In this document: in pieces, positions 19,921 through 50,886 of the stretch
Layout: each line of letters opens with the position of its first letter
Numbering within the stretch: position 1 is the first letter of the stretch
Position numbers and translations under genes: made by a program
Notes under the pieces: generated by a model
Databases searched by the model: none
Told to the model about the DNA's origin: nothing
What the model saw: only the letters and a program-made list of their open reading frames with translations
Assembly (NCBI RefSeq): GCF_900101435.1
Contig: NZ_FMZH01000001.1
Coordinates: 372,001-436,000 of the forward strand
Direction: 5' to 3'
Length of the DNA: 64,000 nt
Origin: Pedobacter soli
GTDB lineage: Bacteria; Bacteroidota; Bacteroidia; Sphingobacteriales; Sphingobacteriaceae

Positions 19921-20028
19921 ATATTGCATAGCAATGTGAGAATTAAAACAGCTTAAAAGCATTAGTAAACACAAAAACTTCTGGTTTTTTATGCCTTTCT
20001 GCCTAAAAAACCACATCTTTGTGCAAAA

Positions 20029-31736: not shown

Positions 31737-32642
31737 CTATTTTGCCTGTACTAAAACATCTGGATAATCAGAAATAATACCATCTACCTTTAAAGCTTTC
31801 AGTTTCTGTACATCGGCTAAAGTATTGGCAGTCCATGGAATAATTTTAACCCCATCGGCATGCGCTTTTGTTACCAGCTCTTCGGTAACCATTTGCCACA
31901 CCGGACTTAAAATAAATGGCTTAAAACCTAAATCGGCAATATTTTCTTCGTAAGTTTTTTTATTGGCTACAAGGAAAGAAGTTTTAACTGCAGGATATTT
32001 CTGGTGTATAAGCTGAATGGTGCGTTTATCAAACGATTGGATCACCACAAAAGGGGTAATTTTCTTATTGTTAATGACCTCCATTAGCAACTTAACAAAA
32101 GTTTCGGGATCTGGATTGGTTACCCCATCTCCTTTTTCGCTGCATTTGGTTTCGATGTTGTAAAAGAACTGTTTGCGTTTATTGGCTTTGATATCACGCT
32201 GAACAGCATCAATTAAATCGCCAAGCAAAGGCAGCTGTGCTTTTTCTTTTTTCTGTTGCGGAAAAAGACCGTAATATTTACTTCCGATATCGAACTTCTT
32301 AATTTCATCGTAATTCATACTAAAAATCGGGTATTTACGCGCATCTGCTTCCGGAATTTCTTTTCCTTCAGGGCTAAGCATAAATGCCGGACTTAAATAA
32401 TCATCATGCGTTACTACTACTTTCCCATCTTTTGAGATGTGGGTGTCCATTTCCAGGGTAGTTATGCCTTCAATCTTCATGGCGTTCAGCATGGCCGCGA
32501 TGGTGTTCTCCGGCATTAAACCACGTCCGCCGCGATGTGCTTCTGCACTGAATGCAGGAAATTTAACTTCTTGACCATTCGACTTTACCGCGAATGCAGA
32601 TAAAAGAATAAAGATTGCTGTTTTTTTAAGTTTCATATCCAA
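31737..32642 (-). CDS. Secreted glycerophosphodiester phosphodiesterase
   Basis: The enzyme splits glycerophosphodiesters into glycerol 3-phosphate and an alcohol. The 301-residue protein has a signal peptide (ILLSAFAVKSNG) and the GDPD signature: AHRGGRGLMPENTIAAM (catalytic His, Arg, Glu), LEMDTHISKDGKVVVTHDD (metal Glu/Asp and second His), and a C-terminal WTANTLADVQKLKALKVDGIISDYPD. All catalytic residues are present. Its position after a calcineurin-like phosphoesterase and in a SusC/SusD operon points to phosphate or glycerol release from extracellular phosphodiesters. Confidence 0.92.
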   Translation of the reverse strand: MDMKLKKTAIFILLSAFAVKSNGQEVKFPAFSAEAHRGGRGLMPENTIAAMLNAMKIEGITTLEMDTHISKDGKVVVTHDDYLSPAFMLSPEGKEIPEADARKYPIFSMNYDEIKKFDIGSKYYGLFPQQKKEKAQLPLLGDLIDAVQRDIKANKRKQFFYNIETKCSEKGDGVTNPDPETFVKLLMEVINNKKITPFVVIQSFDKRTIQLIHQKYPAVKTSFLVANKKTYEENIADLGFKPFILSPVWQMVTEELVTKAHADGVKIIPWTANTLADVQKLKALKVDGIISDYPDVLVQAK

Positions 32643-35848: not shown

Positions 35849-37429
35849 TTAAGGTTTTTGCCACCACATAAGTGTATTTACATCGTCTGGTCCTTGTGCA
35901 GCCAGAACATTTTTATAATTCGTTGGATTTGTAGATTGGGCAAGTATTGGGTAGTACAAACGAACCGGCATTTTGCCTCCATTTAATAAACTTGCTCCTT
36001 GTGGAAGCAGCGGATGCCCGGTTCTGCGATATTCAAACCATTGTTGAAAATCGACTAAAAACAAGGCATAGTATTTTTGCAGATGAATCTGCTCTAATTT
36101 ACTGTCGGCACCTGCAACTTTACTATCCAAAGGCAATGCATTATTCCAGCTAAAATCGCCTTTTAAAGCGTAGTCTCTTACCAATGCATCATCTCCCTTT
36201 GTGTATAATGTCGGAATCCAATAATTAATTCCATCAGCAATACCTTTGTAATAATAGCTCTCACCAGTTCCATTAATAAAGCCTCTTGCAGCCGCCTCTG
36301 CCAAAATAAAATCAACTTCGGCAACATTCATGATAACACCTGTTGAAGCATCTGTTTGTAAGCTGAATGGATTGCCCGACTGTGCATCAGAATAAAAATA
36401 AGCTTGTTTTGTTGGTGCTCCGCTACCGATAGGATAAGCACTTGGCACACCAACATATCCTGCAGGTCCGGCGGCAATACCCCATCTGTTTACTCCATTC
36501 TTTCCATAAGCCGGATTTATTCTCGGATCGGCCCAGGTTGTTAAATTATTGATAAAAAAATCTACAATAGCAGATGCCCTGAAATCGGCAGGTCTCACAC
36601 TAACCATAAATGGTGAAGAGTAAACTGCTGTACTGCTGTTTGTTCCATTCCACAGAATTTTAGCGGTATGCGTATTATCCGTCATAATCGGATACTTGGC
36701 CGGGTTAGTATCCACTATTTCTTTAATTTTAGCTATAGCCTGCGCACTTGCTTCGGCTTTGCCCGAAATACGGAGCAACAATCTTAGATACAATGAGTTT
36801 CCAAACCTGCGCCATTTAGTAACGTCCCCATTAAATACCGGATCGCTGCTCGCTGTAATTGTCTGCCCTGCTGTTAACAATGTATTTGCTTCTTCCAGTT
36901 TATTCAATAGTGACATATAAATATCTTTTTGCTTATCGAATGCTGGCTCCAACACGCCAAACTTACCCTGATTTGCCTCTGTGTAGGGTACATCCCCATA
37001 AGTATCGGTAAGCAATTGCATAGTCCAGGCCTCTGCAATTTTTGAAATTCCCTGATATGAAGTGTTAACTGTACCAGTTGTGCTCGCAATCGCATTGATA
37101 TCCTTAATATTGGTCAATTCAGTATACCATGAATTCCACATGGCATCAGATAATTGTCTTCTGATATCATATCTGTAAATTCTACCTTCCAATACCTCAT
37201 CCAGAGTAGAAACAGTAACCTGCATTAATTCATTGTTAATGCTTCGGTTACGTATTAAATTTGCACTTAATACGTTTGTTAAAGTAGGTGCCAGCAATTT
37301 ATCGGCAGTAACACTTGGCACACCTATTGGATCTATATTGATTTTATCGAAATCTTTCTTGCAGGAGAACAACGAAGTCCCTATCACCAGTAAGAAAGCA
37401 TAACCTGTAATATTTTTAATCTTTTTCAT
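35849..37429 (-). CDS. SusD/RagB-family surface lipoprotein
   Basis: The 526-residue lipoprotein (SLFSC, Cys23) is a SusD-like protein of the SusD_2 type. Marks are the acidic start CKKDFDKINIDPIGVP, a helical TPR-like core (WNSWYTELTNIKDINAIAS, AWTMQLLTDTYGDVPYTEA), and the C-terminal VDFQQWFEYRRTGHPLLP. SusD proteins form a lid over the SusC channel and hand over the ligand. The partner SusC ends 7 bases upstream. The ligand is not a clear glycan: no glycoside hydrolase is nearby, only phosphoesterases and an SGNH hydrolase. Confidence 0.93.
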   Translation of the reverse strand: MKKIKNITGYAFLLVIGTSLFSCKKDFDKINIDPIGVPSVTADKLLAPTLTNVLSANLIRNRSINNELMQVTVSTLDEVLEGRIYRYDIRRQLSDAMWNSWYTELTNIKDINAIASTTGTVNTSYQGISKIAEAWTMQLLTDTYGDVPYTEANQGKFGVLEPAFDKQKDIYMSLLNKLEEANTLLTAGQTITASSDPVFNGDVTKWRRFGNSLYLRLLLRISGKAEASAQAIAKIKEIVDTNPAKYPIMTDNTHTAKILWNGTNSSTAVYSSPFMVSVRPADFRASAIVDFFINNLTTWADPRINPAYGKNGVNRWGIAAGPAGYVGVPSAYPIGSGAPTKQAYFYSDAQSGNPFSLQTDASTGVIMNVAEVDFILAEAAARGFINGTGESYYYKGIADGINYWIPTLYTKGDDALVRDYALKGDFSWNNALPLDSKVAGADSKLEQIHLQKYYALFLVDFQQWFEYRRTGHPLLPQGASLLNGGKMPVRLYYPILAQSTNPTNYKNVLAAQGPDDVNTLMWWQKP

Positions 37430-37436
37430 TTTCTTA

Positions 37437-40400
37437 TTAGTTTATACCTACTACTAAACGTGCACCAAAAGTTCGGGTCGATGGCAATTGCCCCACTTCG
37501 AAACCCTGTACAATATCACTTCCCGACAATGTACCAAACTCAGGATCGAAGGCAGGCCATGGCGACCAGGTATACAGGTTACGGCCATACACACCAATGG
37601 TAATTCTGCTCAAACCTAAACTAGAAACCAGTCTTTTTGAGAAAGTATAATTAATATTTGCTTCTCTGAATTTTAAGTAATCAGTTCTGAAAGTACTTCC
37701 CTCAGCATTGGTAGAACCATACATTGCTTCATAAAAGGCACCAATATCGGTAGCTACTGTAGTGTTAGGACTGTAGGTAACTCCATCTGGATTTAACATC
37801 ACACCTTCTCCAATTAAGCCACCGTATCTTCCTGGTAAGGTTAGTTTTAATTTACCCAAACCTGCCATCCGTGCAAAGGTTAACGAATGTGCAACGGCAC
37901 CAAGTTGTGCATCAAATAACACATTGGCTGCAAAACCTTTATAGGTTACACCAGTACCAAAACTAAATCTAAATTTAGGCATGGTATTTCCAAGATATTT
38001 TAGTTGTGTCTGATCTGGAATAGCTTTACCTGTATTATCGAAAATAACTTGTCCATCAGGTGAACGTTTCAAGCCAAAGCCGTAAATATCGCCCAAACTT
38101 CCACCAACATTGGCTACAATTTGGGTACCACCAAGCGGGCCGGTACGCAGAATTACCGAACTATCTGCCAGCTCTTTAATGGTATTTCTGTTTGCCGAAA
38201 ATGTTCCGTTAACCGTCCATTTAAATGATTTGGTTTGTAACGGCGTAGCATTTACCGACATTTCCAAACCTTTATTATCTACACGTCCGGCATTAAATAT
38301 CGCAATAGAATAACCTGTAGCCCGATCAATTGAGCGGCTTAATATCTGATTTTTAGTATTTCCGGTATATGCAGCAAAATCAAAATTCAATCTGCTTTTA
38401 AATAATTTCAACTCAGCACCGACCTCAATTGTAGTAGTAGAGAGGGGCTTTAAGTTAATATTTGGAAGTATCGTCGGGTTTGTCATTGCCTCTCCCGGAT
38501 AAATTCCGTTTGCAGCTAAAGTATAGTTATATGCAGTACGATATGGCGTAGTGCCTCCGCTTCCAACCTGAGCAATTGATCCGCGTAATTTGAAATAGCT
38601 AATTTGAGCCGGCATCTTCCAAAAATCTGAAGCGATGAACGACAAACTTGCCGATGGGTAGAAAAAACCAACATTATCAGTACGTAGCGGTGATGCTAAA
38701 GTACTGTTCCAATCCTGTCTTCCAGTTAAATCTAAAAACAAATAATTTTTTAACGACACAGACATAGTACCATACAAACTGTTAATATTATAACGGGCTG
38801 TATCAGGTACAGAAATCAGCGGATTTTGATTGTTTTCTAAGCTGTAATCGCCCGGGACAATCAATCCATCGGCACGAAGCTCTGATTTGTAGTACCTGTT
38901 TCTCAATTGACTACCTCCTGCGGTTGCAGAAAGCTTTATATCTTTTGTAAGCTGCTTGTTGTATCTTAATAAAAAGTCGGCATTAAATTCGTAAGAATTG
39001 ATGTCTTGAACACGATAAGATCCCTGTGCAAATTTTGCACCTGCAGCATCCCAAGGACGGCGGGTTTCGCGGATATCGTGATTAAAGTCTATAGAAGAAC
39101 GCACAAGTAAACTCAAATCATTGGTAAAATTGTAGGTAGCCTGAACATTTCCCAGAATACCGTTTCTTCTTTGTCCGTTTAAGTATTGCTCTGAAATTGC
39201 GTAAGGACCTTCCGGAAAACTGGAAGTTAAATCCACAAATTTTCGTTGCTCCTGCCCGGCAACCCAATAGTTTTTAAACCAATCCAAATTCATATTCGGA
39301 TGTGCAAACATAAACCAATACATTAACGACTGGTTACCATAACCTGTGGCGGGTAAGTTATCGCTATGTCTGTTATTGTAATTTGCTTTAAAAGAAATGT
39401 TTAATTTTTTGGTAACCCTGCTATTTCCAGAGATAGCAACCGATGTACGCTCTAAATTGGTATTAGGAACAATCCAGTCATTACTACCGTGATTTGCAGT
39501 GAAACGCAAGCCCGTTTTTCCAACATTTCCGTCTAAACTAACTGAGTTTGTTGTTTCTACACCTGTTTTGAAAAATGCATCCAAAGCATTTGGATAGGCA
39601 ACCCATGGCGTACGGGTTGTTCCGCCTTTTTGTGTGGTCGGATCATATTGAAAAAACATGCTGGTACCATCAAACCTTGGTCCGTAAGTTGAGCTCGTTG
39701 CATGGTTATCTGCGCCATCGGCGTTGGTTCCAAAACTATAATAACTTGCGCCACTTACACCTGCTCCATACTCTTGCTGAATATCAGGCCCCCTGTTAAT
39801 TTGCTCAAAGGCTGTATTAGAAGTAAATGTAATGTTAAACTTTTTCTTACTGCTGCCAGCAGATTTTGTGGTAATTACAATCGCACCGTTTGCACCTCTT
39901 TGACCATAAAGGGCTGATGCAGCTGGTCCTTTCAACACCGTAACATTCTCAATATCATCAGGACTTAAGTCACTCAATGCACTTCCAAAATCTGTAGGCA
40001 AAATATCTCCCGATGTACCATAAACACCTCCACCGGTTCCCGCAGTACGTCTGGCACTACTACTGGCAACAACTCCATCAATAACGATTAAAGCTTCATT
40101 ATCTCCGGTGAGGTTATTTTCACCACGTAGAATAATCTTATTCGATCCAGCTAAACCACTGTTTCGCACCAGATTCAAACCAGCAACTTTTCCGGATAAG
40201 GCATCTGTCCAGTTAGTAGCCACCGCATTTGTGAAAGCAGAACTATCTAAAGTTGTGATTGCATATCCCAGCGCTCTTTCTGAACGTTTTATCCCTAAAG
40301 CGGTAACAACAACTTCATTTAATTCGCTGGTTGAAGACTGAAGTCTGATTACTTCGTTACTTTCATTATTATTAAAAACTTTTGTGAGCGTTTTATAGCC

Positions 40401-40757
40401 TACCATGTTATATAAAACAGTGGTTCCTTTAGCAATAGTGATGGTATAATTTCCTTTTTCGTTGGTTACGCCCAAAAACTTCTTTTTACTATCGGTTATG
40501 GTGGTGCCAATCAATACCTGTCCATCCTGATCATCTAAAACGGTACCTTTAATTACAATATTTTGTGCGGGTGCCTGCGCTAAACTCTCATTGATGCAAA
40601 CAAACTGAACCATCAATACACAAACCAAAAAACTAAAGCGTTTTAGCCTACCTATAAAAAAAGCGCTACTTTTCTTTTGGCCACAATCGGGGCTGCTTTT
40701 CTTCTCATGCAAAACGCATTGGTGCCACGAAATTTGTTGAGTAAAATTTTTAATCAT
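37437..40757 (-). CDS. SusC/RagA-family TonB-dependent outer-membrane transporter
   Basis: The 1106-residue transporter has a carboxypeptidase-regulatory domain (about 65-150), a plug with LNEVVVTALGIKRSERALGYAI, IDGVVASS and VTVLKGPAASALYGQRGANGAI, and a barrel ending FGARLVVGIN. It is SusC-like and pairs with the SusD immediately downstream. The N-terminus is odd: about 60 residues precede the signal cleavage site (INESLAQ), including the basic, Cys-containing stretch HEKKSSPDCGQKK, so the true start may be inside. It is first in a six-gene operon. A tandem 11-bp-spaced half-site array lies about 85-115 bases upstream of the start. Confidence 0.93.
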   Translation of the reverse strand: MIKNFTQQISWHQCVLHEKKSSPDCGQKKSSAFFIGRLKRFSFLVCVLMVQFVCINESLAQAPAQNIVIKGTVLDDQDGQVLIGTTITDSKKKFLGVTNEKGNYTITIAKGTTVLYNMVGYKTLTKVFNNNESNEVIRLQSSTSELNEVVVTALGIKRSERALGYAITTLDSSAFTNAVATNWTDALSGKVAGLNLVRNSGLAGSNKIILRGENNLTGDNEALIVIDGVVASSSARRTAGTGGGVYGTSGDILPTDFGSALSDLSPDDIENVTVLKGPAASALYGQRGANGAIVITTKSAGSSKKKFNITFTSNTAFEQINRGPDIQQEYGAGVSGASYYSFGTNADGADNHATSSTYGPRFDGTSMFFQYDPTTQKGGTTRTPWVAYPNALDAFFKTGVETTNSVSLDGNVGKTGLRFTANHGSNDWIVPNTNLERTSVAISGNSRVTKKLNISFKANYNNRHSDNLPATGYGNQSLMYWFMFAHPNMNLDWFKNYWVAGQEQRKFVDLTSSFPEGPYAISEQYLNGQRRNGILGNVQATYNFTNDLSLLVRSSIDFNHDIRETRRPWDAAGAKFAQGSYRVQDINSYEFNADFLLRYNKQLTKDIKLSATAGGSQLRNRYYKSELRADGLIVPGDYSLENNQNPLISVPDTARYNINSLYGTMSVSLKNYLFLDLTGRQDWNSTLASPLRTDNVGFFYPSASLSFIASDFWKMPAQISYFKLRGSIAQVGSGGTTPYRTAYNYTLAANGIYPGEAMTNPTILPNINLKPLSTTTIEVGAELKLFKSRLNFDFAAYTGNTKNQILSRSIDRATGYSIAIFNAGRVDNKGLEMSVNATPLQTKSFKWTVNGTFSANRNTIKELADSSVILRTGPLGGTQIVANVGGSLGDIYGFGLKRSPDGQVIFDNTGKAIPDQTQLKYLGNTMPKFRFSFGTGVTYKGFAANVLFDAQLGAVAHSLTFARMAGLGKLKLTLPGRYGGLIGEGVMLNPDGVTYSPNTTVATDIGAFYEAMYGSTNAEGSTFRTDYLKFREANINYTFSKRLVSSLGLSRITIGVYGRNLYTWSPWPAFDPEFGTLSGSDIVQGFEVGQLPSTRTFGARLVVGIN

Positions 40758-40825
40758 AATTATTATAGTATATCCGGTTAGTAATAGGGTCCATAATTTC
40801 GATTTATTTCGTCCGGATTTGCGGG

Positions 40826-40870
40826 CAAAGTAAGTCCGTTTATGTTAAGCGTATGTTAAGCAAGTATTAA
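40826..40870 (-). promoter_or_regulatory. Pho-box-like tandem half-sites and promoter box for the SusC operon
   Basis: On the minus strand TTAACA occurs at 40848-40843 and 40859-40854, and TTAATA at 40870-40865. All are exactly 11 bp apart. The -7-like box TTACTTTG (40833-40826) follows after 9 bases. Tandem TTAACA-like half-sites at 11-bp period are the known form of PhoP/PhoB sites in Bacillus and cyanobacteria. A further off-phase TTAATA is at 40878-40873. The assignment to a Pho regulator is inference. Confidence 0.6.
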
Positions 40871-40879
40871 CGTATTAAA

Positions 40880-41265
40880 GACAGCACAAAATATTGCGTT
40901 TTACTTTCATTTAACTTACTTTATATTTCATTAAATAAAATTATAAAAACAAATCGAAACTAAAAACAATAAAACGCAGCAATAGAAAAATTTTCTATAT
41001 GAATGTTTAAAAAGACAGATATTTACAGTTTTTACAAAAGAAGGTCCAAATCAATTTCTATTGAAACCAATTAAAAAAGTCTGTTTCAATTAAAACAGAG
41101 AGGAAAATGAAACTTTTGTACCGGATAATCCAACCGTAATGTTTTGTCACGTAATAATTTTATTACAAGCCCAATCCAAAAGAAAAATCAGACGACAACA
41201 AAACGAAAGATTTGCTTGTAACAATTATATACCAATTAAAATCGAAAGCTAAAGAAACGTCATTT
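40880..41265. other. AT-rich non-coding region with short palindromes
   Basis: No convincing gene is present. Three perfect small palindromes are visible: TCAAT/ATTGA at 41051-41064, CTGTTT/AAACAG at 41081-41098, and GTAATAA/TTATTAC at 41151-41166. The last lies about 100 bases downstream of the hydroxylase stop and could help end that transcript. The others have no assigned role. Confidence 0.5.
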
Positions 41266-42483
41266 TTAAACCTTTATGTACTCAAAAACATGTTTCATGT
41301 AAAGTTTACGTAAAGAGAATGTCCGCTCCAGTGCGATTAAGATAATTACCGGAAATATTAACAAACCAAGTAAATTATAAGTATAGAAAAAGAATCCAAA
41401 AATTAATATCAACCTGAAACACTCGAGGTAATAAATCCATTTCCGCTGCTCCAAAAGTGCTCCAATGTTAATCAGTGTAATCAAAATAAAGATCAGTATG
41501 GCTATTTTATTAAGCATGGTTAACGAACTATAAAATAATGTTGTAGCTGTAAGCATAGCCACTACTATGGTAAGCTGAAGATTTAAATAGATCTTAAATT
41601 TTGGTCTGGCTGTATCCTGCTTTTTATCCTGAAAGTAACGCTTTTCCAGTACCGGTCTGATAGTCTGATCCATTAAAGCAGGGCTACCGAAAACAGCATT
41701 CCATTTGGCCTTAAAACCATTTGCCCGGCGATAAGCCTCTCCTATTTCTAAATAATAGTGAAAGTGCTGCCACAAAAAGCTATAACTTTTGATGGGATGT
41801 GTTAATCCATACTTAGGTGGTTCTTCTTCTTTTTGGAAAGTCCCGAAAAGCTTATCCCAAAACACAAAAACATCGCCATAATTTTTATCCAGGTACTTCT
41901 CGTCAGAAGCGTGATGCACGCCATGTAAAGAAGGGGTTATCAATACATTTTCTAACCAGCCAATCTTACCTATGAGCTGGGTATGCGTAAAGAAAGAATA
42001 AGCTCCATGAGCCAGTAATATGGTAATAATCATATTGGGATGAAAACCAACTAATGGCAATACACACCAGAAAACATTCCGGAAAACGGCCTGAATGGTG
42101 GTAATCCGTGCTGCGGCCGAAAGATTAAATTCTTCGCTTTGATGATGTACAATGTGCGCTGCCCACAAAAAATTAATTTCGTGCCCCAGCCTGTGGTACC
42201 AGTACCAAACCAGATCGGTAGAAAGTAGTAATAAAACCCATACATACCAGGCCGTAGAAATATTAAAAATGGCATAATTAGTATATACCCACTCGTAAAC
42301 CTGATAAAAACTGGCTGCAATAAATAAATTCAATAAGCGCTCGGCAATACCTACACTAAAATTTGCAACGGTACTTTCGTATTTAAAAACCTTTGCCTTT
42401 TTTTGATGTTGGGCAATTTTAAATTCAATGAAAACGAAAATAAAAAACGCAGGAATAGCAAATGCAAGGTAGTTTACCGTCAT
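41266..42483 (-). CDS. Sterol desaturase/fatty-acid hydroxylase superfamily membrane protein
   Basis: The 405-residue integral membrane protein has the three His clusters of the di-iron family: HRLGH, HIVHH and, further on, HGVHH. These lie between membrane helices at the N-terminus, and about four more helices lie at the C-terminus. Similar proteins include alkylglycerol mono-oxygenases and beta-carotene- or sphingolipid-type hydroxylases; the sequence does not choose. I start at the ATG at 42483; the upstream 20 residues are not membrane-like. The gene is divergent from the glucokinase-like gene. Confidence 0.88.
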   Translation of the reverse strand: MTVNYLAFAIPAFFIFVFIEFKIAQHQKKAKVFKYESTVANFSVGIAERLLNLFIAASFYQVYEWVYTNYAIFNISTAWYVWVLLLLSTDLVWYWYHRLGHEINFLWAAHIVHHQSEEFNLSAAARITTIQAVFRNVFWCVLPLVGFHPNMIITILLAHGAYSFFTHTQLIGKIGWLENVLITPSLHGVHHASDEKYLDKNYGDVFVFWDKLFGTFQKEEEPPKYGLTHPIKSYSFLWQHFHYYLEIGEAYRRANGFKAKWNAVFGSPALMDQTIRPVLEKRYFQDKKQDTARPKFKIYLNLQLTIVVAMLTATTLFYSSLTMLNKIAILIFILITLINIGALLEQRKWIYYLECFRLILIFGFFFYTYNLLGLLIFPVIILIALERTFSLRKLYMKHVFEYIKV

Positions 42484-42646
42484 AACAGTTTTAATATTTT
42501 TAAGTTTAACGTTGCAAACATAATTATATTCTACTAAATACATAGATTTAATAGTTTTATTTTATTACATACCGATTACCACTATATCTATTTATAGTTT
42601 GCCGTTTTAAAATATTTGCAGAACTTCGATCCCATAAATACATATT

Positions 42647-43405
42647 ATGGCTACACAGAAAAAAGTTGACAACAACAATATATTATCAATCGATATTGGC
42701 GGCACCAGCATCAAATCGGTGCTTTTAGATGAAAATGGCAACATGCTTAATGAATATGTAAAAAGCAAAACGCCACCCGAAGCTACACCTAAGGATATTG
42801 TTAACGGCATAGCAGAACTGGTTAAGACTTTCCCACAAACCTACAATCGCATTTCGATTGGTTTTCCGGGTTACGTTAAAAATGGTGTAGTTAAAACTGC
42901 CCCTAACCTGGCCAAAAACAAGTGGGAAGATATAGATCTGGCCCAACGTGTAGCCAATACTCTGGGACATCCGGTACGTTTGGTTAACGATGCCGATCAG
43001 CAAGGTTTAGGCGTGGTAGCAGGCAAAGGCTTTGAAATTGTTTTTACCGTAGGTACAGGCTTTGGTACATCTTTATTATTTGACGGCGAGCTGCTCCCTC
43101 ACTTAGAACTGGCCCACTTTCCTATTAACAAGGAAGAAGATTACGACGATTACATTGGCAACAAGGCTTTCGAAAAAATTGGTGCCGAGCGCTGGAATAA
43201 AAGGCTTAAAAAAGTAATTGAAACCTATAAAACAGTATTTAATTACGATACACTATACATTGGTGGTGGTAATTCGAAACAAATCGACTTTAAACTCGAA
43301 AGCAACATTAAAATTGTAACCAATCGCGATGGTATTAAAGGTGGTGCAAAACTCTGGAAACTGGCCGATAAGTATAACATTTTCACCGTTTCACCTAAGA
43401 AATAA
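42647..43405 (+). CDS. ROK-family kinase, polyphosphate-glucokinase type
   Basis: The 252-residue enzyme should phosphorylate glucose. It has the ROK/ASKHA phosphate motif LSIDIGGTSIKSVLLD, the catalytic segment LVNDADQQGLG, and the second motif FTVGTGFGTSL. The ending KRLKKVIETYKTVFNYDTLYIGGGNSKQI is like polyphosphate glucokinases of actinobacteria. The CxCGxxGC zinc site of ordinary ROK kinases is absent, as in those enzymes, and it is short, as they are. It is followed by gnd, zwf and pgl, so its product glucose 6-phosphate enters the oxidative pentose phosphate pathway at once. Polyphosphate as donor is inferred, not proven. Confidence 0.82.
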   Translation: MATQKKVDNNNILSIDIGGTSIKSVLLDENGNMLNEYVKSKTPPEATPKDIVNGIAELVKTFPQTYNRISIGFPGYVKNGVVKTAPNLAKNKWEDIDLAQRVANTLGHPVRLVNDADQQGLGVVAGKGFEIVFTVGTGFGTSLLFDGELLPHLELAHFPINKEEDYDDYIGNKAFEKIGAERWNKRLKKVIETYKTVFNYDTLYIGGGNSKQIDFKLESNIKIVTNRDGIKGGAKLWKLADKYNIFTVSPKK

Positions 43406-43506
43406 TACGATTTTAAAAATTCACCGTTTATTACAATCTTTTAACAACAAAATCTGCAATATTAATTTGTAAACCCTATTTTTGGGTGCATTCAAAAAAA
43501 TAAAAC

Positions 43507-44922
43507 ATGGCAAATAACGATTCAAAAAAATATAAATTGGGAATGATTGGTTTAGGCACCATGGGCCGCAACCTTTTATTAAACATGGCTGATAAAGGCT
43601 TCTCGGTAACTGGTTACGATAAAGACACCAAAATGATTGCCAAGCTTGAGGAAGAGGGCAAAGCACATCAATTAGAGGGCTTTAACGACATTGAAAGCTT
43701 TATTTCGAGCTTACAAACGCCACGTACCCTGATTTTATTGGTACCTGCCGGCCCGATTGTAGATAGCGTTATTGCCGAATTGAAACCACTTTTAAGCAAA
43801 GGCGATATCATTATCGATAGCGGAAATTCGCATTTTACCGATACAAACCGTCGTGTTGATGAACTGGAAAAAGATGGTTTACATTTCTTTGGCATGGGTA
43901 TTTCTGGTGGCGAAGAAGGTGCACGTTTCGGTCCGAGTATGATGCCTGGTGGCGATAAACAGGCTTACAACGTAGTTAAAGATGTTTTTGATGCCGTAGC
44001 AGCTAAAGTAGGTACTGATCCTTGTGTAACTTATATTGGCCCGGGTGCTTCAGGTCACTTTGTTAAAATGGTACACAATGGTATCGAGTATGCCATTATG
44101 CAACTTATTGCCGAAGTATATGGCATTCTTAAAAATGGTTTAGGCTACTCGAACGAAGAGATTTATAAAGTTTTCAAAAAATGGAATGAAGGCAGATTGC
44201 AGTCATTCTTATTAGAAATCACAGCCGAAATCTTCCTGTTTAAAGATACCGAAACCCAAAACGATCTTTTAGATCAGATCAAAGACGAAGCACGTTCAAA
44301 AGGAACAGGAAAATGGACCTCAGAAGTTTCTATGGAACTTCAGTTACCGGTACCAACCATTAACGAAGCTGTTTCGAACCGCGATTTATCTAAATTTAAA
44401 AAATTAAGGGTATCGCTTGAAGAAGCATTTGGTAAAAAAGACACTAAAATTGAAGTTACTGTTGATGAATTAGAAGATGCTTTCTACTTCGCCATGATAA
44501 GCGCCTACGCACAAGGTATGCACTTATTGGTACAAGCTTCAAAAGAATACCAGTACGATTTGCAGTTACAGGAAATTGCCAAAATCTGGCGCGGTGGCTG
44601 TATCATCAGAGCAACTTTCTTAGCTGATATTTATAAAGCTTACGATAACAACAATGCTTTAGAACACCTTTTTGGTGATGCAGGCATCCAGCAGATCATT
44701 AAAGGTAGTTTAGCCGGAACGCGCAAAACTATTGCCGCTTGTATTAACTCAGGCTTAGGTATCCCGGCATTTGCTTCTACCCTTACTTATTTCGATACCA
44801 TTACCACAGGCCGTATGCCTTCTAACTTGATACAGGCACAAAGAGATTTCTTTGGTGCACACACTTTCGAACGTATTGATAAAGATGGTGTTTTCCACGC
44901 CGACTGGAACAAATTATCATAA
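43507..44922 (+). CDS. gnd: 6-phosphogluconate dehydrogenase (decarboxylating)
   Basis: The enzyme converts 6-phosphogluconate to ribulose 5-phosphate with NADP. The 471-residue protein has the dinucleotide fold GLGTMGRNLLLNMADKGF, then FGMGISGGEEGARFGPSMMPGG, the catalytic Lys in GHFVKMVHNGIEYA, and the C-terminal GIPAFASTLTYFDTITTGRMPSNLIQAQRDFFGAHTFERID. This is the long homodimeric form. It is second in a glucokinase-gnd-zwf-pgl series. Confidence 0.95.
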   Translation: MANNDSKKYKLGMIGLGTMGRNLLLNMADKGFSVTGYDKDTKMIAKLEEEGKAHQLEGFNDIESFISSLQTPRTLILLVPAGPIVDSVIAELKPLLSKGDIIIDSGNSHFTDTNRRVDELEKDGLHFFGMGISGGEEGARFGPSMMPGGDKQAYNVVKDVFDAVAAKVGTDPCVTYIGPGASGHFVKMVHNGIEYAIMQLIAEVYGILKNGLGYSNEEIYKVFKKWNEGRLQSFLLEITAEIFLFKDTETQNDLLDQIKDEARSKGTGKWTSEVSMELQLPVPTINEAVSNRDLSKFKKLRVSLEEAFGKKDTKIEVTVDELEDAFYFAMISAYAQGMHLLVQASKEYQYDLQLQEIAKIWRGGCIIRATFLADIYKAYDNNNALEHLFGDAGIQQIIKGSLAGTRKTIAACINSGLGIPAFASTLTYFDTITTGRMPSNLIQAQRDFFGAHTFERIDKDGVFHADWNKLS

Positions 44923-44951
44923 CCTAGTACACTCACGAACAAAGACAAAAA

Positions 44952-46466
44952 ATGAAAACCAAAACCGCATTAAACCCGACCATATTTGTAATATTTGGCG
45001 GAACAGGTGATTTAAACAAAAGAAAATTAGCACCTGCCCTATACAATTTATTTATGGAGGGTTACATGCCAGAGAAGTTTGCCATTATTGGTACTGGTAG
45101 AACCGAATTTACCGACGATAGCTACAAGGCTGCCTTAGAAGATGCTGTAAACCAATTTTCGCGTAGCGGAAAGGTAAAAAAGGAAAAATGGGATGCTTTT
45201 GGAAATACCATCCACTATTGCCCTACCGATTTTGCACAGCCTAAAACCTTCGAAAACCTGAAAGATGCGGTAGAAAAATACCAGAAAGAATATGGTCCGA
45301 ACACACAGGTAATTTTCTACCTTGCTGTAGCACCAAATTTCTTCCCGATTATTGCTGAGTGTTTACAAAAATATAAACTTACACAAGACGAAGATAACAG
45401 CCGTATTGTAATTGAGAAACCTTTCGGTCATGATTTAGAGTCGGCAAAGGAGCTGAATACTTTATTGAGCACCATTTTTACCGAAAAGCAGATCTATCGT
45501 ATCGATCATTACCTGGGTAAAGAAACCGTACAAAACATGATGGCTTTCCGTTTTGCCAATGCTTTGTTTGAGCCGCTTTGGAACAGGTCTTACATCGACC
45601 ACGTACAGATTTCGGTAACCGAACAATTGGGTGTAGGCGATCGTGGGGGTTATTACGAAGGTTCTGGTGCTTTGAGAGATATGATCCAGAATCACCTTTT
45701 GCAGCTGCTTTGTTTGGTTGGAATGGAAGCGCCAATTAATTTTGATGCTGATGAAATCAGGAACCGTAAAGTGGAGGTTTTAAGGGCTATGCGTCCATTT
45801 TCTGCAGAAGATATCCGTTTTCATACCGTTCGTGGCCAATACAGTAAAGGTTGGGTTGAAGGGAAGGAAGTTCCAGGCTACCGTCAGGAAAAAGGTGTTG
45901 ATGCACACTCTAATACCGAAACTTTTGCAGCAGTTAAATTCCATATCGATAACTGGAGATGGCAGGGCATTCCTTTCTATTTAAGAACAGGAAAGCGCTT
46001 GAACCAAACTTCATCGTTAATTACTATTCAGTTCAGAGATGTACCACATCAGATTTTCTCATCGGGTGTAACCGAAAACTGGCAACAAAACCGTTTGGTA
46101 ATCAGTATTCAGCCAGAAATGAGTATCCGCATGCAGGTACAGGCTAAACGTCCTGGACTGGATATGGTGCTTAACCCGGTTGATATGGTTTTCGATTACA
46201 AAGGAACTTACGAAGGTGATACCCCTGAGGCTTACGAAACTTTATTGCTTGATGCCATGATGGGCGATCAAACCCTGTTTATGCGCGGCGATCAGGTAGA
46301 GGCTGCATGGGAACTGGTAATGCCTATCTTAAATACGTGGGAGAGCAAAAAATCAATCAACTTCCCGAACTACCCTGCCGATAGCTGGGGCCCTGAGGAA
46401 GCTGAAGCATTAATTGCCAGAGATGGTTTCCACTGGTTTAACCTGCCATTAAAGAATAAGGATTAA
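44952..46466 (+). CDS. zwf: Glucose-6-phosphate 1-dehydrogenase
   Basis: The enzyme oxidises glucose 6-phosphate to 6-phosphogluconolactone, making NADPH. The 504-residue protein has the nucleotide motif IFGGTGDLNKRKLAPALYNL, the EKPFGHD segment, and the active-site IDHYLGKETVQNMMAFRFAN. It is 29 bases after gnd. A hairpin separates it from pgl, whose product acts next in the pathway. Confidence 0.95.
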   Translation: MKTKTALNPTIFVIFGGTGDLNKRKLAPALYNLFMEGYMPEKFAIIGTGRTEFTDDSYKAALEDAVNQFSRSGKVKKEKWDAFGNTIHYCPTDFAQPKTFENLKDAVEKYQKEYGPNTQVIFYLAVAPNFFPIIAECLQKYKLTQDEDNSRIVIEKPFGHDLESAKELNTLLSTIFTEKQIYRIDHYLGKETVQNMMAFRFANALFEPLWNRSYIDHVQISVTEQLGVGDRGGYYEGSGALRDMIQNHLLQLLCLVGMEAPINFDADEIRNRKVEVLRAMRPFSAEDIRFHTVRGQYSKGWVEGKEVPGYRQEKGVDAHSNTETFAAVKFHIDNWRWQGIPFYLRTGKRLNQTSSLITIQFRDVPHQIFSSGVTENWQQNRLVISIQPEMSIRMQVQAKRPGLDMVLNPVDMVFDYKGTYEGDTPEAYETLLLDAMMGDQTLFMRGDQVEAAWELVMPILNTWESKKSINFPNYPADSWGPEEAEALIARDGFHWFNLPLKNKD

Positions 46467-46474
46467 ATAAGTTG

Positions 46475-46512
46475 ATGGTTCATAGTCAAATAGTTTAATA
46501 GCTATGAACCAT
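46475..46512 (+). other. Intercistronic hairpin between zwf and pgl
   Basis: ATGGTTCATAG and CTATGAACCAT pair perfectly over 11 bp with a 16-base loop. The surrounding sequence ('gttcat', 'aaccat') belongs to a low-complexity repeat also seen near 52073 and 57085, so it may be an inserted repeat rather than a dedicated regulator. Confidence 0.6.
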
Positions 46513-46531
46513 TAACTATCAACCATTACAC

Positions 46532-47257
46532 ATGAATTTATTAATATACAAAACCCTCGAAGAATTAAACCAGGATTTAGCCGACTACGTGATCAAGATC
46601 GCAGAAATGTCGATCGAAGAAAACGACCGCTTTAACTTCGTTTTAACCGGAGGAAGCTCACCGAAAGCTTTGTACCATTTTTTGGCTACCGAGTGCCAGC
46701 ACAGAATTGACTGGGAAAAGGTTTATTTCTTTTTTGGCGATGAGCGCAATGTACCAGCCACCGATGATAATTACAACGGATTAATGGCTAAAAAAACGAT
46801 CTTAGATCCGCTGGGTATTAAAGAAGATCACATTTTTTATGTTGATACTACTTTGGCACCAGAAAAGGCAGCTATAGAATATAAAAAAGCAATTGACAAT
46901 CATTTTAACGGCGATGATATTGCGTTCGATCTGATATTGCTGGGTATGGGTGATGATGCACATACCGCTTCTATTTTCCCGCACACTACTTTGGTTAAAG
47001 ATGAAGAAGTAAATGTAGCTTCGGTATTTGTAGAGAAATTAAATACTTACCGGATCAGTTTTACTGCGCCATTAATTAATAAAGCCGATAATGTAGCCTT
47101 TTTAGTTTTTGGAGAGAACAAAGCAGAGGCTTTAAAGCATGTAATTGGCGACGAGCAGAAAGATGTAGACACTTACCCTTCTCAACTGATTAATCCAATT
47201 GAGGGTAAATTAACCTGGTTTACAGACGAGGCAGCTACCAAATTATTAGAAGATTAA
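46532..47257 (+). CDS. pgl: 6-phosphogluconolactonase
   Basis: The enzyme hydrolyses 6-phosphogluconolactone, the step between Zwf and Gnd. The 241-residue protein is of the DevB/SOL type: FVLTGGSSPKALYHFLA, VYFFFGDERNVPATDDNYN, and LILLGMGDDAHTASIFPHT, then a C-terminal VAFLVFGENKAEALKHVI. All three oxidative pentose phosphate enzymes are therefore together here. Confidence 0.93.
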   Translation: MNLLIYKTLEELNQDLADYVIKIAEMSIEENDRFNFVLTGGSSPKALYHFLATECQHRIDWEKVYFFFGDERNVPATDDNYNGLMAKKTILDPLGIKEDHIFYVDTTLAPEKAAIEYKKAIDNHFNGDDIAFDLILLGMGDDAHTASIFPHTTLVKDEEVNVASVFVEKLNTYRISFTAPLINKADNVAFLVFGENKAEALKHVIGDEQKDVDTYPSQLINPIEGKLTWFTDEAATKLLED

Positions 47258-47263
47258 ATTACC

Positions 47264-47614
47264 ATGTCTGACGAGCAACAATTATCAGACTTTTTAAACG
47301 GAAAAACGGAATATACCTTAGGGTTATTCCGTTTTTTTATAGCTCAACTGAGCGAATTGGGGCCGATTAACCTACGGCCAACCAAATCAATGATTGCCAT
47401 TGAAAATCAAAAGAGTTTTGCCTACATTACTCAGCTCGGTAAAAACTTTATGCACGTGGTTATTCCATTTAGCCAGCCCTTTACAGATAATCTGTGTTTT
47501 ACCAAAATTGCCCAAGTACCCGGCACCAATCAGTTTAACCATCATTTAAGAATCTATTTTGAAGCAGATGTAAATGATGAAGTGAAAGGATTTTTGAAAA
47601 TGGCGATTATATAG
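47264..47614 (+). CDS. DUF5655-like small protein
   Basis: The 116-residue cytoplasmic protein begins with an acidic helix and contains FRFFIAQLSELGPINLRPTKSMIAIE and KSFAYITQLGKNFMHVVIPFSQPFTDNLCFTKIAQVPG, phrases typical of the DUF5655 fold. No catalytic motif is recognisable. It starts 6 bases after pgl, so it is co-transcribed with the pentose phosphate genes, but a metabolic link is not evident. It is followed by a cluster of hairpin repeats. Confidence 0.6.
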   Translation: MSDEQQLSDFLNGKTEYTLGLFRFFIAQLSELGPINLRPTKSMIAIENQKSFAYITQLGKNFMHVVIPFSQPFTDNLCFTKIAQVPGTNQFNHHLRIYFEADVNDEVKGFLKMAII

Positions 47615-47630
47615 CTAAGTTCTCAGCCCT

Positions 47631-47834
47631 GGTTCGTGTCTGCACGAACCAACTATCCCAACTTAATCTAACTCCTACCCCTTAGTTGGTTACACATCAA
47701 CCAATTAATTCGTAAGCCCTATAAAAAAAGTGTTTGGTGAATCACCAAACACTCGAAAGTGTCAGATGGTAACACCTAACACCACGTTAATGAGAAAGCC
47801 TTAGTAAACCTTGTTTCGTGTCTGCACGAAACAA
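47631..47834. repeat. Cluster of hairpin repeats between convergent operons
   Basis: Two copies of a TTCGTGTCTGCACGAA-centred hairpin (47631-47650, arms GGTTCGTG/CACGAACC; 47811-47834, arms TTGTTTCGTG/CACGAAACAA) flank a third hairpin with arms GTGTTTGGTG/CACCAAACAC (47730-47752). They lie between the convergent pentose phosphate and ppx-ppk operons, where one or more probably ends transcription. Confidence 0.75.
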
Positions 47835-47849
47835 GAATTAACAACCCGC

Positions 47850-48731
47850 TTAATCCAGTTTCTCTTCAATCAAAAGCTTAATAATACCATCTGCCAACCC
47901 TACCTTAGGCACATAAATTTGTTTAATCCCCGTCCATTTCATTAAGGTTAAATAAATTTCGCAGGCCGGAATAATTACGTCGGCACGATCGGGATTTAAA
48001 CCCAGCGTGTTTATCCGCTCTTTTAATGAGTAGCTGGTTAGCTTATTGTACATCGCATTAAGCTTTTGCAACGATAAGGGTGCATTTTCCTTCTCGTCAG
48101 ACATTCGGAAAAGCTTATTGATGTTTCCACCCGTTCCAATACCAGCCAAATGTTTGTATGCTTTGGTATGTTCTTTTACCCAGTCTTTCATTTCATCCCA
48201 GGTTTCTTCTTTATCCTGGTTATCAAGCATCCTGATCGTACCAATATTGAAAGACCTCGAAGCCTCGGGCACACCTTTTACAAAGACAGATAATTCAGTA
48301 CTACCTCCACCCACATCAATGTACAGGTAAGTTTTATTCTCATCCAGCTCTTCTTCAATGTGGTTAGCATAAATAATATTGGCTTCGCGCTGCCCCTCAA
48401 TAATTTCAAGGGTAACATCAGTTTGTTCTTTAATCAGCTTTACAATATCCTGTCCGTTGTTGGCTTCTCGCATAGCCGAAGTAGCACAAGCCAGGTATTC
48501 GGAAACATGATAAACATCCATCAGATTTTTAAAAGCCGTCATGGTTTTTACCAGATCTGTTGATTTTTTCTCTGAAATATGCTGATCCAGAAAGGCATCG
48601 TCGCCCAACCTTAACGGCACACGGATGAGTGTATTTTTCTTGTATTTGTATTTTCCGTCCTGTTTGCTGATATCGGCAATGAGTAACCTCACGGCGTTCG
48701 AGCCAATATCTATAGCTGCGTATCTTAACAT
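47850..48731 (-). CDS. ppx: Exopolyphosphatase (Ppx/GppA family)
   Basis: The enzyme removes phosphate from the ends of polyphosphate, or from pppGpp. The 293-residue protein has the ASKHA start YAAIDIGSNAVRLLIADI, CATSAMREANNG, and the second phosphate motif LYIDVGGGSTELSVF. It lacks the C-terminal HD-type domain of long E. coli Ppx, so it is the short form. Its ATG overlaps the ppk stop by one base, so synthesis and breakdown of polyphosphate are coupled in one operon. Confidence 0.92.
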   Translation of the reverse strand: MLRYAAIDIGSNAVRLLIADISKQDGKYKYKKNTLIRVPLRLGDDAFLDQHISEKKSTDLVKTMTAFKNLMDVYHVSEYLACATSAMREANNGQDIVKLIKEQTDVTLEIIEGQREANIIYANHIEEELDENKTYLYIDVGGGSTELSVFVKGVPEASRSFNIGTIRMLDNQDKEETWDEMKDWVKEHTKAYKHLAGIGTGGNINKLFRMSDEKENAPLSLQKLNAMYNKLTSYSLKERINTLGLNPDRADVIIPACEIYLTLMKWTGIKQIYVPKVGLADGIIKLLIEEKLD

Positions 48732-50791
48732 TATGATTGATGCTTGGTTTTTAAATAGTTGTAGATGTCTACCTGCGCTCTTATTTTTTTACTTAATCTG
48801 TTTTTATGGTATTTATTGTTGTTCAGGGCATTAATCTGTCTCGATTTGGTATTATCCTGCAGTTGCAGGTCAATAATATCCTGTATTTCCTGCTTAACAT
48901 CGTGATCTAAAACAGGGAAACCCACCTCTACCCGGTGCTCAAAATTCCGGCTCATCAAATCGGCCGACGATAAATACATATCATTTTTACCGTTGTTACC
49001 GAAAATGTAAACACGGGCGTGCTCTAAAAACTTATCGATAATGCTGATAGCCGTAATGTTTTCACTAAACCCCTTAACACCAGGAATTAAACAGCAAATA
49101 CCCCTAACAATCAGCTGAATTTTAACACCTGCATTGCTGGCATCGTAAAGCTTGGCAATAATGCCTTCATCGGCCAAACTATTTACTTTCAATAAGATAT
49201 AAGCCATTTTACCGGCCTTGGCGTTTCTAATTTCGCGGTTAATGAAATTCACCAGCTTCGACCGGCTTTCTAAAGGCGAAACAATTAAATGCTTAAAACC
49301 ACCTGTTACCGTTCTTTTGTTCAGCGCATCAAAAAGCTTCACCAAATCGTTGGTAATTTCTTTCCTGGCGGTAAAAATACTGTGGTCGCAATATAAGCCT
49401 GCTGTCTTTTCGTTAAAGTTACCGGTGGCCAGATTGGCGTAATACACGGGTTTATCTTTTTCAATACGCTTTATTAAACAGATTTTAGAGTGTACTTTAT
49501 AATCGGTAAGACCATAATTTACCTTCACACCTTCTTCCATTAAACGAGTGGTCCAGAAAATATTGGCCTGCTCATCAAAACGGGCTTTTAACTCCAACAC
49601 AACTGAAACAGCTTTGCCATTTTTGGCTGCATTGATTAAAGCATTAATCACCTTTGAGTTTTCGGCCAAGCGATAGAGCGTAATCTGTATTTCGGTTACT
49701 TTCGGATCGATAGCCGCTTCACGAAGAAACAAAATGATATAATCGTACGATTGATATGGCAGGTTAACCAGATAATCTTTTTGCGCCACTTTAGCGAAAA
49801 CACTTTGGGTACGGTGCAAATCGTGCACCTTTAGCGGCACGTTAGGCGTATACTCCAATTCCTTTTTACCCACATTCGGGAAAGCAATAAAATCTCCGAA
49901 TTTGTGGTAACGGTTACCCGGAATTAAACTCTCAGCCTCCAGTTTAAGTTTATTTACCAAAACAGTAAGCATATTTAAAGGCATGGCCGAATCGTATAAC
50001 AAACGCATTGGCTTGCCTTTTTTACGTTTCTCGAGGCTGTTTTTAAGATCTTCGATAAACTTATCGCTCACATTATTATCAATATCCAGCTCGGCATCGC
50101 GGGTTAGCTGAATGGAGTAAGCTTCTAAACTATCGTAAGTAAAAATATAGAAGATATCATCCAGGCAGTAGCGGATAATATCCTCAGCCATGATGATAAA
50201 TTTTAAATCATTCGTTTCAGGCAGTACGAGGAAACGTGGTAAACTGGGTGGAATTTCGATCAGGGCATACTTCTCCCTCATCTTGGTGTCTTTTTTCGAT
50301 AATTTTACGAAGAAATACAAAAACCTGTCCTTCAGTTCCGGGAAAGGTTTATCCATATCCAGCATAATGGGCACCAGATTGGATAAGATTTTATCCCTGA
50401 AATGATTTTTAACGAACTCGCCACGACTTACGTTGAGCTGGGTATCATTTAAAATGAAAATCCGGTTTTGTGCCAGTTCGTTAATTAAGGTAGCCTGAAA
50501 AAGCTGATCGAATTTACGTTCCTGTTTTACTACAATATTTTTAATCTCATTCAGGATTTTCTTTGGGTTAAACCCTAAAAGAGCTTTGGCTTTATCGTTC
50601 AGATTGGTTAAGCGCGTCATGGTAGCTACACGAACGCGGTAAAACTCTTCTAAATTTGACGAAAAGATCGATAAAAACTTAATGCGTTCAATTAGTGGCA
50701 CAGTTTCATCGGCTGCTTCCTGCAGCACGCGCTCATTAAAATAAAGCCAGCTAATTTCGCGGTTAAAAAATGGGATCTTCTTCTTACTCAT
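48731..50791 (-). CDS. ppk: Polyphosphate kinase 1
   Basis: The enzyme makes polyphosphate from ATP. The 686-residue protein has the four-domain PPK1 layout: an N-terminal helical domain (FNREISWLYFNERVLQEAAD), a head domain, and two phospholipase-D-like C-terminal domains. The autophosphorylated His434 sits in YKVHSKICLI, and the partner segments are LKARFDEQANIFW and YLSSADLMSRNFEHRVEVGFPV. It is first in the ppk-ppx operon. Upstream lie a hairpin with a T-run and an array of TTAACA half-sites. Confidence 0.95.
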   Translation of the reverse strand: MSKKKIPFFNREISWLYFNERVLQEAADETVPLIERIKFLSIFSSNLEEFYRVRVATMTRLTNLNDKAKALLGFNPKKILNEIKNIVVKQERKFDQLFQATLINELAQNRIFILNDTQLNVSRGEFVKNHFRDKILSNLVPIMLDMDKPFPELKDRFLYFFVKLSKKDTKMREKYALIEIPPSLPRFLVLPETNDLKFIIMAEDIIRYCLDDIFYIFTYDSLEAYSIQLTRDAELDIDNNVSDKFIEDLKNSLEKRKKGKPMRLLYDSAMPLNMLTVLVNKLKLEAESLIPGNRYHKFGDFIAFPNVGKKELEYTPNVPLKVHDLHRTQSVFAKVAQKDYLVNLPYQSYDYIILFLREAAIDPKVTEIQITLYRLAENSKVINALINAAKNGKAVSVVLELKARFDEQANIFWTTRLMEEGVKVNYGLTDYKVHSKICLIKRIEKDKPVYYANLATGNFNEKTAGLYCDHSIFTARKEITNDLVKLFDALNKRTVTGGFKHLIVSPLESRSKLVNFINREIRNAKAGKMAYILLKVNSLADEGIIAKLYDASNAGVKIQLIVRGICCLIPGVKGFSENITAISIIDKFLEHARVYIFGNNGKNDMYLSSADLMSRNFEHRVEVGFPVLDHDVKQEIQDIIDLQLQDNTKSRQINALNNNKYHKNRLSKKIRAQVDIYNYLKTKHQS

Positions 50792-50792
50792 T

Positions 50793-50826
50793 AAAAAAAA
50801 TAAAAAATCCCTGCCAAAACAGGGAT
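50793..50826 (-). terminator. Hairpin and T-run just before ppk
   Basis: On the minus strand ATCCCTG pairs with CAGGGAT around TTTTGG, followed by a run of T broken by one A. It looks like the terminator of the histone-like gene, but it ends only a base or two from the ppk start codon. By the promoter box at 50830 it would be at the very start of the ppk mRNA. It may therefore act as an attenuator. Confidence 0.7.
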
Positions 50827-50829
50827 GTT

Positions 50830-50886
50830 CAAAACTGCATATTAATTTGTTAAATCGATGTTAATTAATTGACGTATTAACGTTAA
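50830..50886 (-). promoter_or_regulatory. Pho-box-like tandem half-sites and promoter box for ppk-ppx
   Basis: On the minus strand TTAACA is at 50853-50848 and again at 50864-50859, exactly 11 bp apart. The in-phase position 50886-50881 reads TTAACG, with one poor unit (ACGTCA) between. A -7-like box CAGTTTTG (50837-50830) follows after 10 bases. The arrangement matches the one upstream of susC at 40826 almost base for base in spacing. Confidence 0.55.

Follow-up and report, generated by a model that had tools for sequence, protein, structure and literature searches.

The window analysed here, a 64,000-nucleotide stretch of the Pedobacter soli genome (contig NZ_FMZH01000001.1, positions 372,001 to 436,000), contains two arrays of TTAACA half-sites with an 11-bp period, one upstream of an operon headed by a susC-like transporter gene and the other upstream of the polyphosphate kinase gene ppk. 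Comparisons within this genome and with its relatives indicate that these arrays are very probably PHO boxes of an autoregulated PhoB/PhoR system that co-induces phosphate scavenging and polyphosphate metabolism; a small-RNA (sRNA) arm of this system is likely. Co-regulation of the SusC/SusD locus and ppk-ppx by phosphate starvation had been proposed in a preliminary description of the window, and genome-wide and comparative evidence now supports it as a prediction. The class of element is known; what is new is the spacing to the -7 box, the split regulator genes, the lack of PhoU, and the predicted sRNA arm acting at the co-regulated susC.

Tandem TTAACA arrays at phosphate genes

By the published definition (PMC4415409), a PHO box consists of two 11-nt direct repeats to which an OmpR-type regulator binds in head-to-tail order, and at least two such units are found here upstream of phosphate genes. 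The half-sites reported in the preliminary description upstream of susC and ppk, with their 11-bp spacing, were all located where it had placed them, on the minus strand (Table 1), and the third ppk half-site, TTAACG, stands two 11-bp periods upstream of the neighbouring TTAACA. TTAACA is presumably also the consensus of PhoP in Bacillus subtilis. The TAnnTTTG-like boxes first described beyond the arrays are present as near-matches rather than exact matches, namely TTACTTTG at susC, readable as TACTTTG 10 bases after the array, and CAGTTTTG at ppk, also 10 bases after the array. Because they are only near-matches, the gaps of 9 and 10 bases originally quoted vary with the register; measured from the last TTAACA to TTTG, the spacing is 13 bases at susC and 14 bases at ppk.

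Genome-wide counts were made over the 6.0-Mb genome with the same pattern reversed as the control. The exact pair TTAACA-N5-TTAACA was found 12 times (4 reversed), the pair with at most one mismatch 162 times (88 reversed), and the full architecture TTAA-N7-TTAACA-N12..14-TTTG at four sites (0 reversed). These four sites are those of susC, ppk, DUF47-pitA, and an intergenic location on contig 4 that contains a small-RNA-like gene. The full pattern was fitted after the sites had been seen, and the independent part of this result is the reversed control together with conservation. Each tandem was scored against two TTAACA units set 11 bp apart, 12 matching bases being the maximum. Among 2130 tests, covering the window and 23 own-genome stretches at three offsets, only susC, pitA, and the sRNA reach 11 to 12 of 12 at TAnnTTTG or TAnTTTG sites, a pattern outside which the ppk box falls. 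Looser motifs are not enriched, either in the window (25 found with at most two mismatches, 19.8 ± 4.0 expected) or, for a single TTAACA with TAnnTTTG, in the genome (25 versus 26 in the reversed control), and these counts are therefore not taken as support.

The check suggested in the preliminary description was whether such sites are found at phosphate genes across the genome. Four of the 12 exact pairs lie directly upstream of the susC operon, ppk-ppx, a PhoR-like kinase gene, and DUF47-pitA. A fifth precedes a lipoprotein gene adjoining a TonB receptor gene. No pst, phoA, or phoX gene turned up in the scan of the neighbours of exact pairs, although no search dedicated to those genes was made. 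Exact pairs on contigs 18 (three), 24 (two), 26, and 9 were set aside as chance or unclassified occurrences with no clear phosphate link.

The arrays are retained in relatives. The ppk set comprised 80 loci, the nearest named ones, at 100% and 99% protein identity, being those of Pedobacter kyungheensis and P. ghigonis, respectively; one locus is cut at a contig edge, and 75 of the 79 usable loci score at least 11 (63 score 12 and 12 score 11; three score 10 and one scores 9). In 78 aligned promoters the half-site columns are 89 to 100% conserved, and most of the bases between them drift. In a second set, 22 of 24 genus loci score 11 to 12 at ppk, the remainder being one contig edge and one score of 10. 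The DUF47-pitA array scores 12 in 24 of 25 genus loci, the exception beginning near a contig edge, and 11 to 12 in three of five loci from other families. At phoB, all 24 genus loci that were fetched score 11 to 12 (the fragment in genome G021 was not fetched), and six loci from other families score 11 (one), 10 (one), and 9 (four); at phoR, 13 of 25 genus loci score 11 to 12. All 14 of the closest susC orthologues have a tandem scoring 9 to 12 with TTTG at 13 to 14 bases, and five more distant SusC matches score 8 to 10. As background, among 575 other genes of the 80 ppk loci, two reach 11 and none reaches 12.

PhoB-like and PhoR-like regulators

The genome contains 11 matches to the OmpR-type DNA-binding domain (Trans_reg_C), none of which falls in the window, in agreement with the preliminary description, which had found no regulator encoded there. 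For a response regulator on contig 14, the best NCBIfam model is PhoB (TIGR02154). Its gene is preceded by TTAACA-N5-TTAACT-N5-TTAACT. With a score of at least 11 within 150 bp upstream, it stands apart from the other ten OmpR-type genes, which score 8 to 10. A histidine kinase gene on contig 10 sits just before DUF47-pitA, and the kinase gene and DUF47-pitA each have an exact pair. Arrays were thus found upstream of both regulator genes, with a spacing to the -7 box that differs from that at susC and ppk: at phoB, TACTTTCG lies 20 bases past the last half-site, and phoR has a TAAATTGC-like box.

The response regulator and kinase genes are unlinked in this genome. Of 16 genomes from other genera of the class, 12 have the best matches to the two side by side, which makes a cognate pair likely, and we infer that they are PhoB and PhoR, autoregulated through their own arrays. 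The arrays, their conservation, and their company at the PhoB-like, PhoR-like, and pitA genes lead to the prediction that phosphorylated PhoB binds them. Under low phosphate, phosphorylated PhoB would bind the susC and ppk arrays and activate organic-phosphate scavenging and polyphosphate metabolism together, and it would also induce the sRNA gene.

A probable multicopy small-RNA family and its predicted target

At the contig-4 full-architecture site, a hairpin terminator follows within about 50 bases downstream, and no open reading frame (ORF) of 80 amino acids overlaps the site. The genome holds a second copy on contig 5, and in neither copy is an ORF of at least 8 codons closed inside the transcript-like stretch. 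A DNA search of 41 genomes recovered the site in synteny as well as extra copies that match only from about the box to the terminator. Genomes have from at least 1 to at least 5 matches, several of them at different places; at most 16 candidates were scored per genome, and these copy numbers are lower bounds. From 55 loci, three without an sRNA match and two fragments (L362 and L364) were dropped, leaving 50 copies for comparison, and alignment A1 holds 49 of them, L310 being left out as nearly identical to L309. All compared copies have a PHO-box-like tandem. TTTG accompanied by a tandem scoring 8 to 12 was found in 49 of the 50 copies, in 46 at exactly 13 bases, and the last copy has TTTA. 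When the register was controlled, all 49 tandems in register reached 8 and 20 reached 11, versus 135 of 833 tests (partly through a third half-site) and 3 of 833, respectively, in shifted registers.

The element has two hairpins: the 5' one carries the near-invariant loop UUUGGUUAG, the other is the terminator, and a conserved single-stranded linker runs between them. RNAalifold predicted the terminator only; the 5' hairpin was added by hand and then counted. Double changes were found in 11 of 11 pairs of the terminator and in 2 of 7 pairs of the 5' hairpin, in which 93.4% of cells pair. Over the entire structure, the paired share of cells is 93.2% versus 83.2% in shuffled alignments (0 of 500 reaching the observed value) and at most 51.2% in slid versions, and the covariation score is 0.343 versus 0.173 shuffled (0 of 500). 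A search of six loci found no Rfam family at its gathering score: for the contig-4 copy, searched to an E value of 10, the highest match was MicC (31.1 of 90 bits), and the loci of five other copies gave no matches; the FopS and GibS models were not among the 27 Rfam matches up to an E value of 10. One pattern scan of IMG/VR for the sRNA core found none. A 28.5-bit match in the window was rejected as a plain terminator-like hairpin, as was a single 27.9-bit match from the 80-locus ppk set. The repeated element probably represents an sRNA gene.

An OlsF-like gene (NF052615, 440.4 bits; cut-off, 620) lies convergent to the contig-4 copy. OlsF is the type of enzyme that makes phosphorus-free ornithine lipids. 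This gene has no PHO box of its own (best score, 7 of 12 in 160 bp upstream), and the hairpin between it and the contig-4 sRNA gene could serve both. Of the 24 genus genomes where this end of the OlsF-like gene could be located, 23 have the OlsF-linked copy in the same position; G008 lacks it, and the incomplete G021 yielded nothing.

Counting G-U pairs, the sRNA loop can form 12 bp with TACTAACCGGAT of the susC leader, and 14 bases separate this site from the susC AUG. The predicted duplex has an energy of -14.0 kcal/mol, which ranks second among 254 start regions of the same genome; the best of 20 shuffled loops reached -12.7 kcal/mol, and none of 2000 shuffled leaders reached the energy of the susC duplex. 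The leader motif CTAACC is present in 10 of 14 susC orthologues, including some with otherwise diverged leaders, and two more have remnants. The two without it are those of G008 and G021, which are also the two genomes that yielded no OlsF-linked sRNA copy; further sRNA copies exist in G008, and G021 is 78% complete. By comparison, CTAACC occurs in the leaders of 4 of 253 genes of the same genome, susC included, and of 7 of 975 Pedobacter genes. The motif recurs in the leader of at least one of the more distant SusC genes (L155), and a general habit of SusC leaders could therefore account for some of the signal. The CTAACC of L138 was not counted, since it sits in the promoter and not in the leader.

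Our analysis suggests that the sRNA loop likely pairs with the susC leader and represses susC translation. The position of the site before the AUG makes repression the likely outcome, as described for FopS and susC in Bacteroides (PMC11697453). If induced together with susC, the sRNA would damp susC translation, and induction and brake would place the uptake operon under an incoherent feed-forward loop.

Alternative readings, known systems, and neighbouring genes

A number of observations weigh against the interpretation of the arrays as PHO boxes with an sRNA arm. For seven of the 12 exact pairs, the neighbour genes scanned show no evident link to phosphate, which means that the bare TTAACA pair is not specific. 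The ppk array is absent from all six fetched loci of other families, and the phoR array scores below 11 in 12 of 25 genus loci, which points to a clade-specific regulon. With 228.2 bits, the response regulator falls short of the curated TIGR02154 cut-off of 296.2, and the kinase reaches 235.3 of 334.2 bits for PhoR (TIGR02966), its best model being PnpS (257.6 of 400); it is for this reason that we use the labels PhoB-like and PhoR-like. The phoB and phoR arrays have no TTTG at 13 to 14 bases. PhoU (PF01895) is absent from the genome and present in 13 of 14 control genomes, and therefore the usual Pst/PhoU signalling cannot be assumed and the kinase would need another route to sense phosphate. 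As for the sRNA, its tandems are looser (13 of 49 score 8 to 9, and the second copy in this genome scores 9), the strongest loop duplex among the 254 start regions, at -14.1 kcal/mol, is that of an unrelated 676-amino-acid gene, and a duplex scan with the conserved linker was no better than shuffles.

The same facts can be read in other ways. A different OmpR-family regulator responding to a different stress, with the phosphate genes forming only part of its regulon, would account for the seven pairs without phosphate neighbours, and the genome has 11 Trans_reg_C matches to choose from, OmpR-type regulators commonly using direct repeats of 10 to 11 bp; we nevertheless regard this as unlikely, because the PhoB-like gene is the only regulator gene of the 11 with a score of at least 11 in the 150 bp upstream, its array recurs in all 24 fetched genus loci, and in 12 of 16 genomes from other genera the gene beside it corresponds to the very kinase whose gene has an array here. 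That PhoB binds the arrays yet represses ppk or susC, giving the opposite response to phosphate, is less probable again: the sign of regulation cannot be read from sequence, but an array that ends 13 to 14 bases before TTTG resembles an activator site near the core promoter, and ppk/ppx and SusCD-esterase loci rise in low phosphate in other Bacteroidota (PMC3547664, PMC8115612). The lack of enrichment of the relaxed motif in the window and of the single half-site genome-wide is what would be expected if the arrays were chance AT-rich repeats, an explanation that is hardly credible given the 89 to 100% conservation of the half-site columns over 78 ppk promoters, the two of 575 background genes, and the four full-architecture sites versus none.

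It is also improbable that the repeated element is a mobile or decaying repeat and not a regulatory RNA. Each genome has at least 1 to 5 matches, of which several lie in different positions, as would suit such a repeat, but the terminator covaries in 11 of 11 pairs, the whole-structure covariation score exceeds that of shuffles (0.343 versus 0.173, 0 of 500), the loop and linker are near-invariant, and the OlsF-side copy is in place in 23 of 24 genus genomes. Returning to the PHO-box interpretation, we propose more tentatively a complete model that may or may not hold in every part, namely a PhoU-less regulon in which split, autoregulated PhoB/PhoR would drive pitA, ppk-ppx, the SusCD-phosphoesterase operon, and PHO-box sRNAs that brake susC, with one sRNA gene locked in place facing the olsF-type gene.

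The Escherichia coli PHO box likewise consists of tandem 11-nt units near the core promoter, and here the regulator genes carry arrays too. It differs in that its unit is built on CTGTCAT, whereas here the unit is TTAACA-N5 with a -7 box of the TAnnTTTG type as its partner, and in contrast to E. coli PhoB-PhoR, the phoB- and phoR-like genes are unlinked and PhoU is missing. In Bacteroides fragilis, ppk and ppx are PhoB dependent (+24.4 and +42.1 fold, respectively) (PMC3547664), which parallels the array at ppk; the same source also names pst and phoU genes, in contrast to this genome without PhoU, its text contains no match for the string TTAAC, and it describes no sRNA arm in the part available. 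In Flavobacterium johnsoniae, SusCD-phosphodiesterase loci and phoB rise in low phosphate (PMC8115612). The likeness is in the cluster of SusCD with a calcineurin-like phosphodiesterase, which phosphate depletion induces in that species; PUSI, a phosphate utilisation system (PUS) locus of F. johnsoniae, has an extracytoplasmic function (ECF) sigma gene, whereas here susC has a PHO box and its scanned neighbours include no sigma/anti-sigma pair. The available text of PMC8115612 has no matches for 'promoter' or 'pho box'.

In Bacteroides thetaiotaomicron, FopS comprises multicopy paralogous sRNAs that base-pair near the susC mRNA start codon (PMC11697453), and the Pedobacter family is also multicopy with a predicted site near the susC start codon. 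FopS, as described in that source, has a single-stranded 5' seed stretch and a terminator, whereas the Pedobacter family has two hairpins, a complementary stretch in the loop, and PHO-box-like promoters. Among the literature matches listed, no title or abstract beginning announced a PHO box in Bacteroidota, and none announced a phosphate sRNA in this phylum. PhoB dependence is already documented in Bacteroidota, and what is added is a box definition that can be scanned for in this group, TTAAYA-N5-TTAACA-N13-TTTG. Polyphosphate metabolism and outer-membrane uptake of organic phosphate are tied to one predicted regulator, which is useful for work on soil phosphorus. A further addition is a multicopy sRNA family that is linked to phosphate and for which a specific target is predicted. 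If the complete model is true, a single signal would make both the transporter and its brake.

The content of the two operons as first described was confirmed by Pfam (Table 1). The genes from susC to the GDSL-like hydrolase gene are probably co-transcribed, judging from their order and strand, and they include the gene content of a PUS locus (SusC, SusD, MetallophosC, and GDPD by Pfam). The ppx-like gene and ppk overlap by one base. A gene for a lysine/alanine-rich, H1-like protein (Pfam match below threshold) ends right before the ppk array, and a polyphosphate- or nucleoid-binding role is possible for its product.

Table 1. Positions of the arrays, boxes, genes, and RNA elements discussed in the text (window positions unless a locus is named)
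Feature	Position	Strand	Remarks
susC operon PHO-box array	40843..40870	-	TTAATA 40865-40870, TTAACA 40854-40859, TTAACA 40843-40848; 11-bp period
susC -7-like box TTACTTTG	40826..40833	-	TTTG 13 bases past array
susC leader site TACTAACCGGAT	40772..40783	-	12-bp complement to sRNA loop; predicted pairing
susC-like TonB-dependent transporter	37437..40757	-	TIGR04056, 519.9 bits; Plug and CarbopepD domains
susD-like lipoprotein	35849..37429	-	SusD-like_2
DUF5689 protein	34301..35842	-	Pfam; susC operon
Calcineurin-like phosphoesterase	32805..34214	-	MetallophosN/C
Glycerophosphodiester phosphodiesterase	31737..32642	-	GDPD
GDSL-like hydrolase	31013..31711	-	Pfam; final gene of susC run
ppk PHO-box array	50848..50886	-	TTAACG 50881-50886, TTAACA 50859-50864, TTAACA 50848-50853
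ppk -7-like box CAGTTTTG	50830..50837	-	TTTG 14 bases past array
ppk, polyphosphate kinase 1	48731..50791	-	TIGR03705, 763.6 bits (cut-off, 465.85)
ppx-like gene	47850..48731	-	Ppx-GppA; TIGR03706, 219.7 of 307 bits
H1-like protein gene	50892-51491	-	
RNase P RNA	20027-20406	+	Class A (RF00010), 266.2 bits
sRNA-like copy 1	L047:3081-3165, contig 4	+	99.6 bits
OlsF-like bifunctional acyltransferase gene	L047:3174-4925	-	Convergent with contig-4 sRNA-like copy
sRNA-like copy 2	L336:2677-2757, contig 5	+	89.9 bits
Second ppk1-type kinase gene	L303:3826-5868, contig 19	+	
SusC/SusD/DUF5689 paralogue	L304:457-8995, contig 19	-	
TonB receptor and lipoprotein genes	L018:508-4863, contig 20	-	

Paralogues of both operons are present elsewhere in the genome. 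A second ppk1-type kinase gene has no array; it starts on the last stop-codon base of its upstream neighbour, an HD/PycTM-domain gene, and the best tandem upstream scores 7. The closest paralogue of the window SusC (59% identity) belongs to a SusC/SusD/DUF5689 set that has a sigma factor and FecR beside it instead of a PHO box, the best tandem scoring 9 (TGAACA, TTAGGA), and it may be the same outer-membrane module with different wiring.

Two further candidate sites were found. An operon on contig 16, which from the first residues of its products we take to encode SusC (identified also in the match table), SusD, and an endonuclease/exonuclease/phosphatase-like third protein, has TTAATA-N5-TTTATA-N13-TTTG (9 of 12). 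A TonB receptor gene on contig 20 has CTAACA-N5-CTAACA (10 of 12) at the same spacing, and the next gene, for a lipoprotein, has an exact pair of its own; in a protein search, the best 120 of 7991 matches to this lipoprotein were hypothetical or uncharacterised where named. By description, the receptor and lipoprotein resemble the phosphate-induced pairs of F. johnsoniae (PMC8115612). Elsewhere in the window, an RNase P RNA of class A is encoded on the plus strand.

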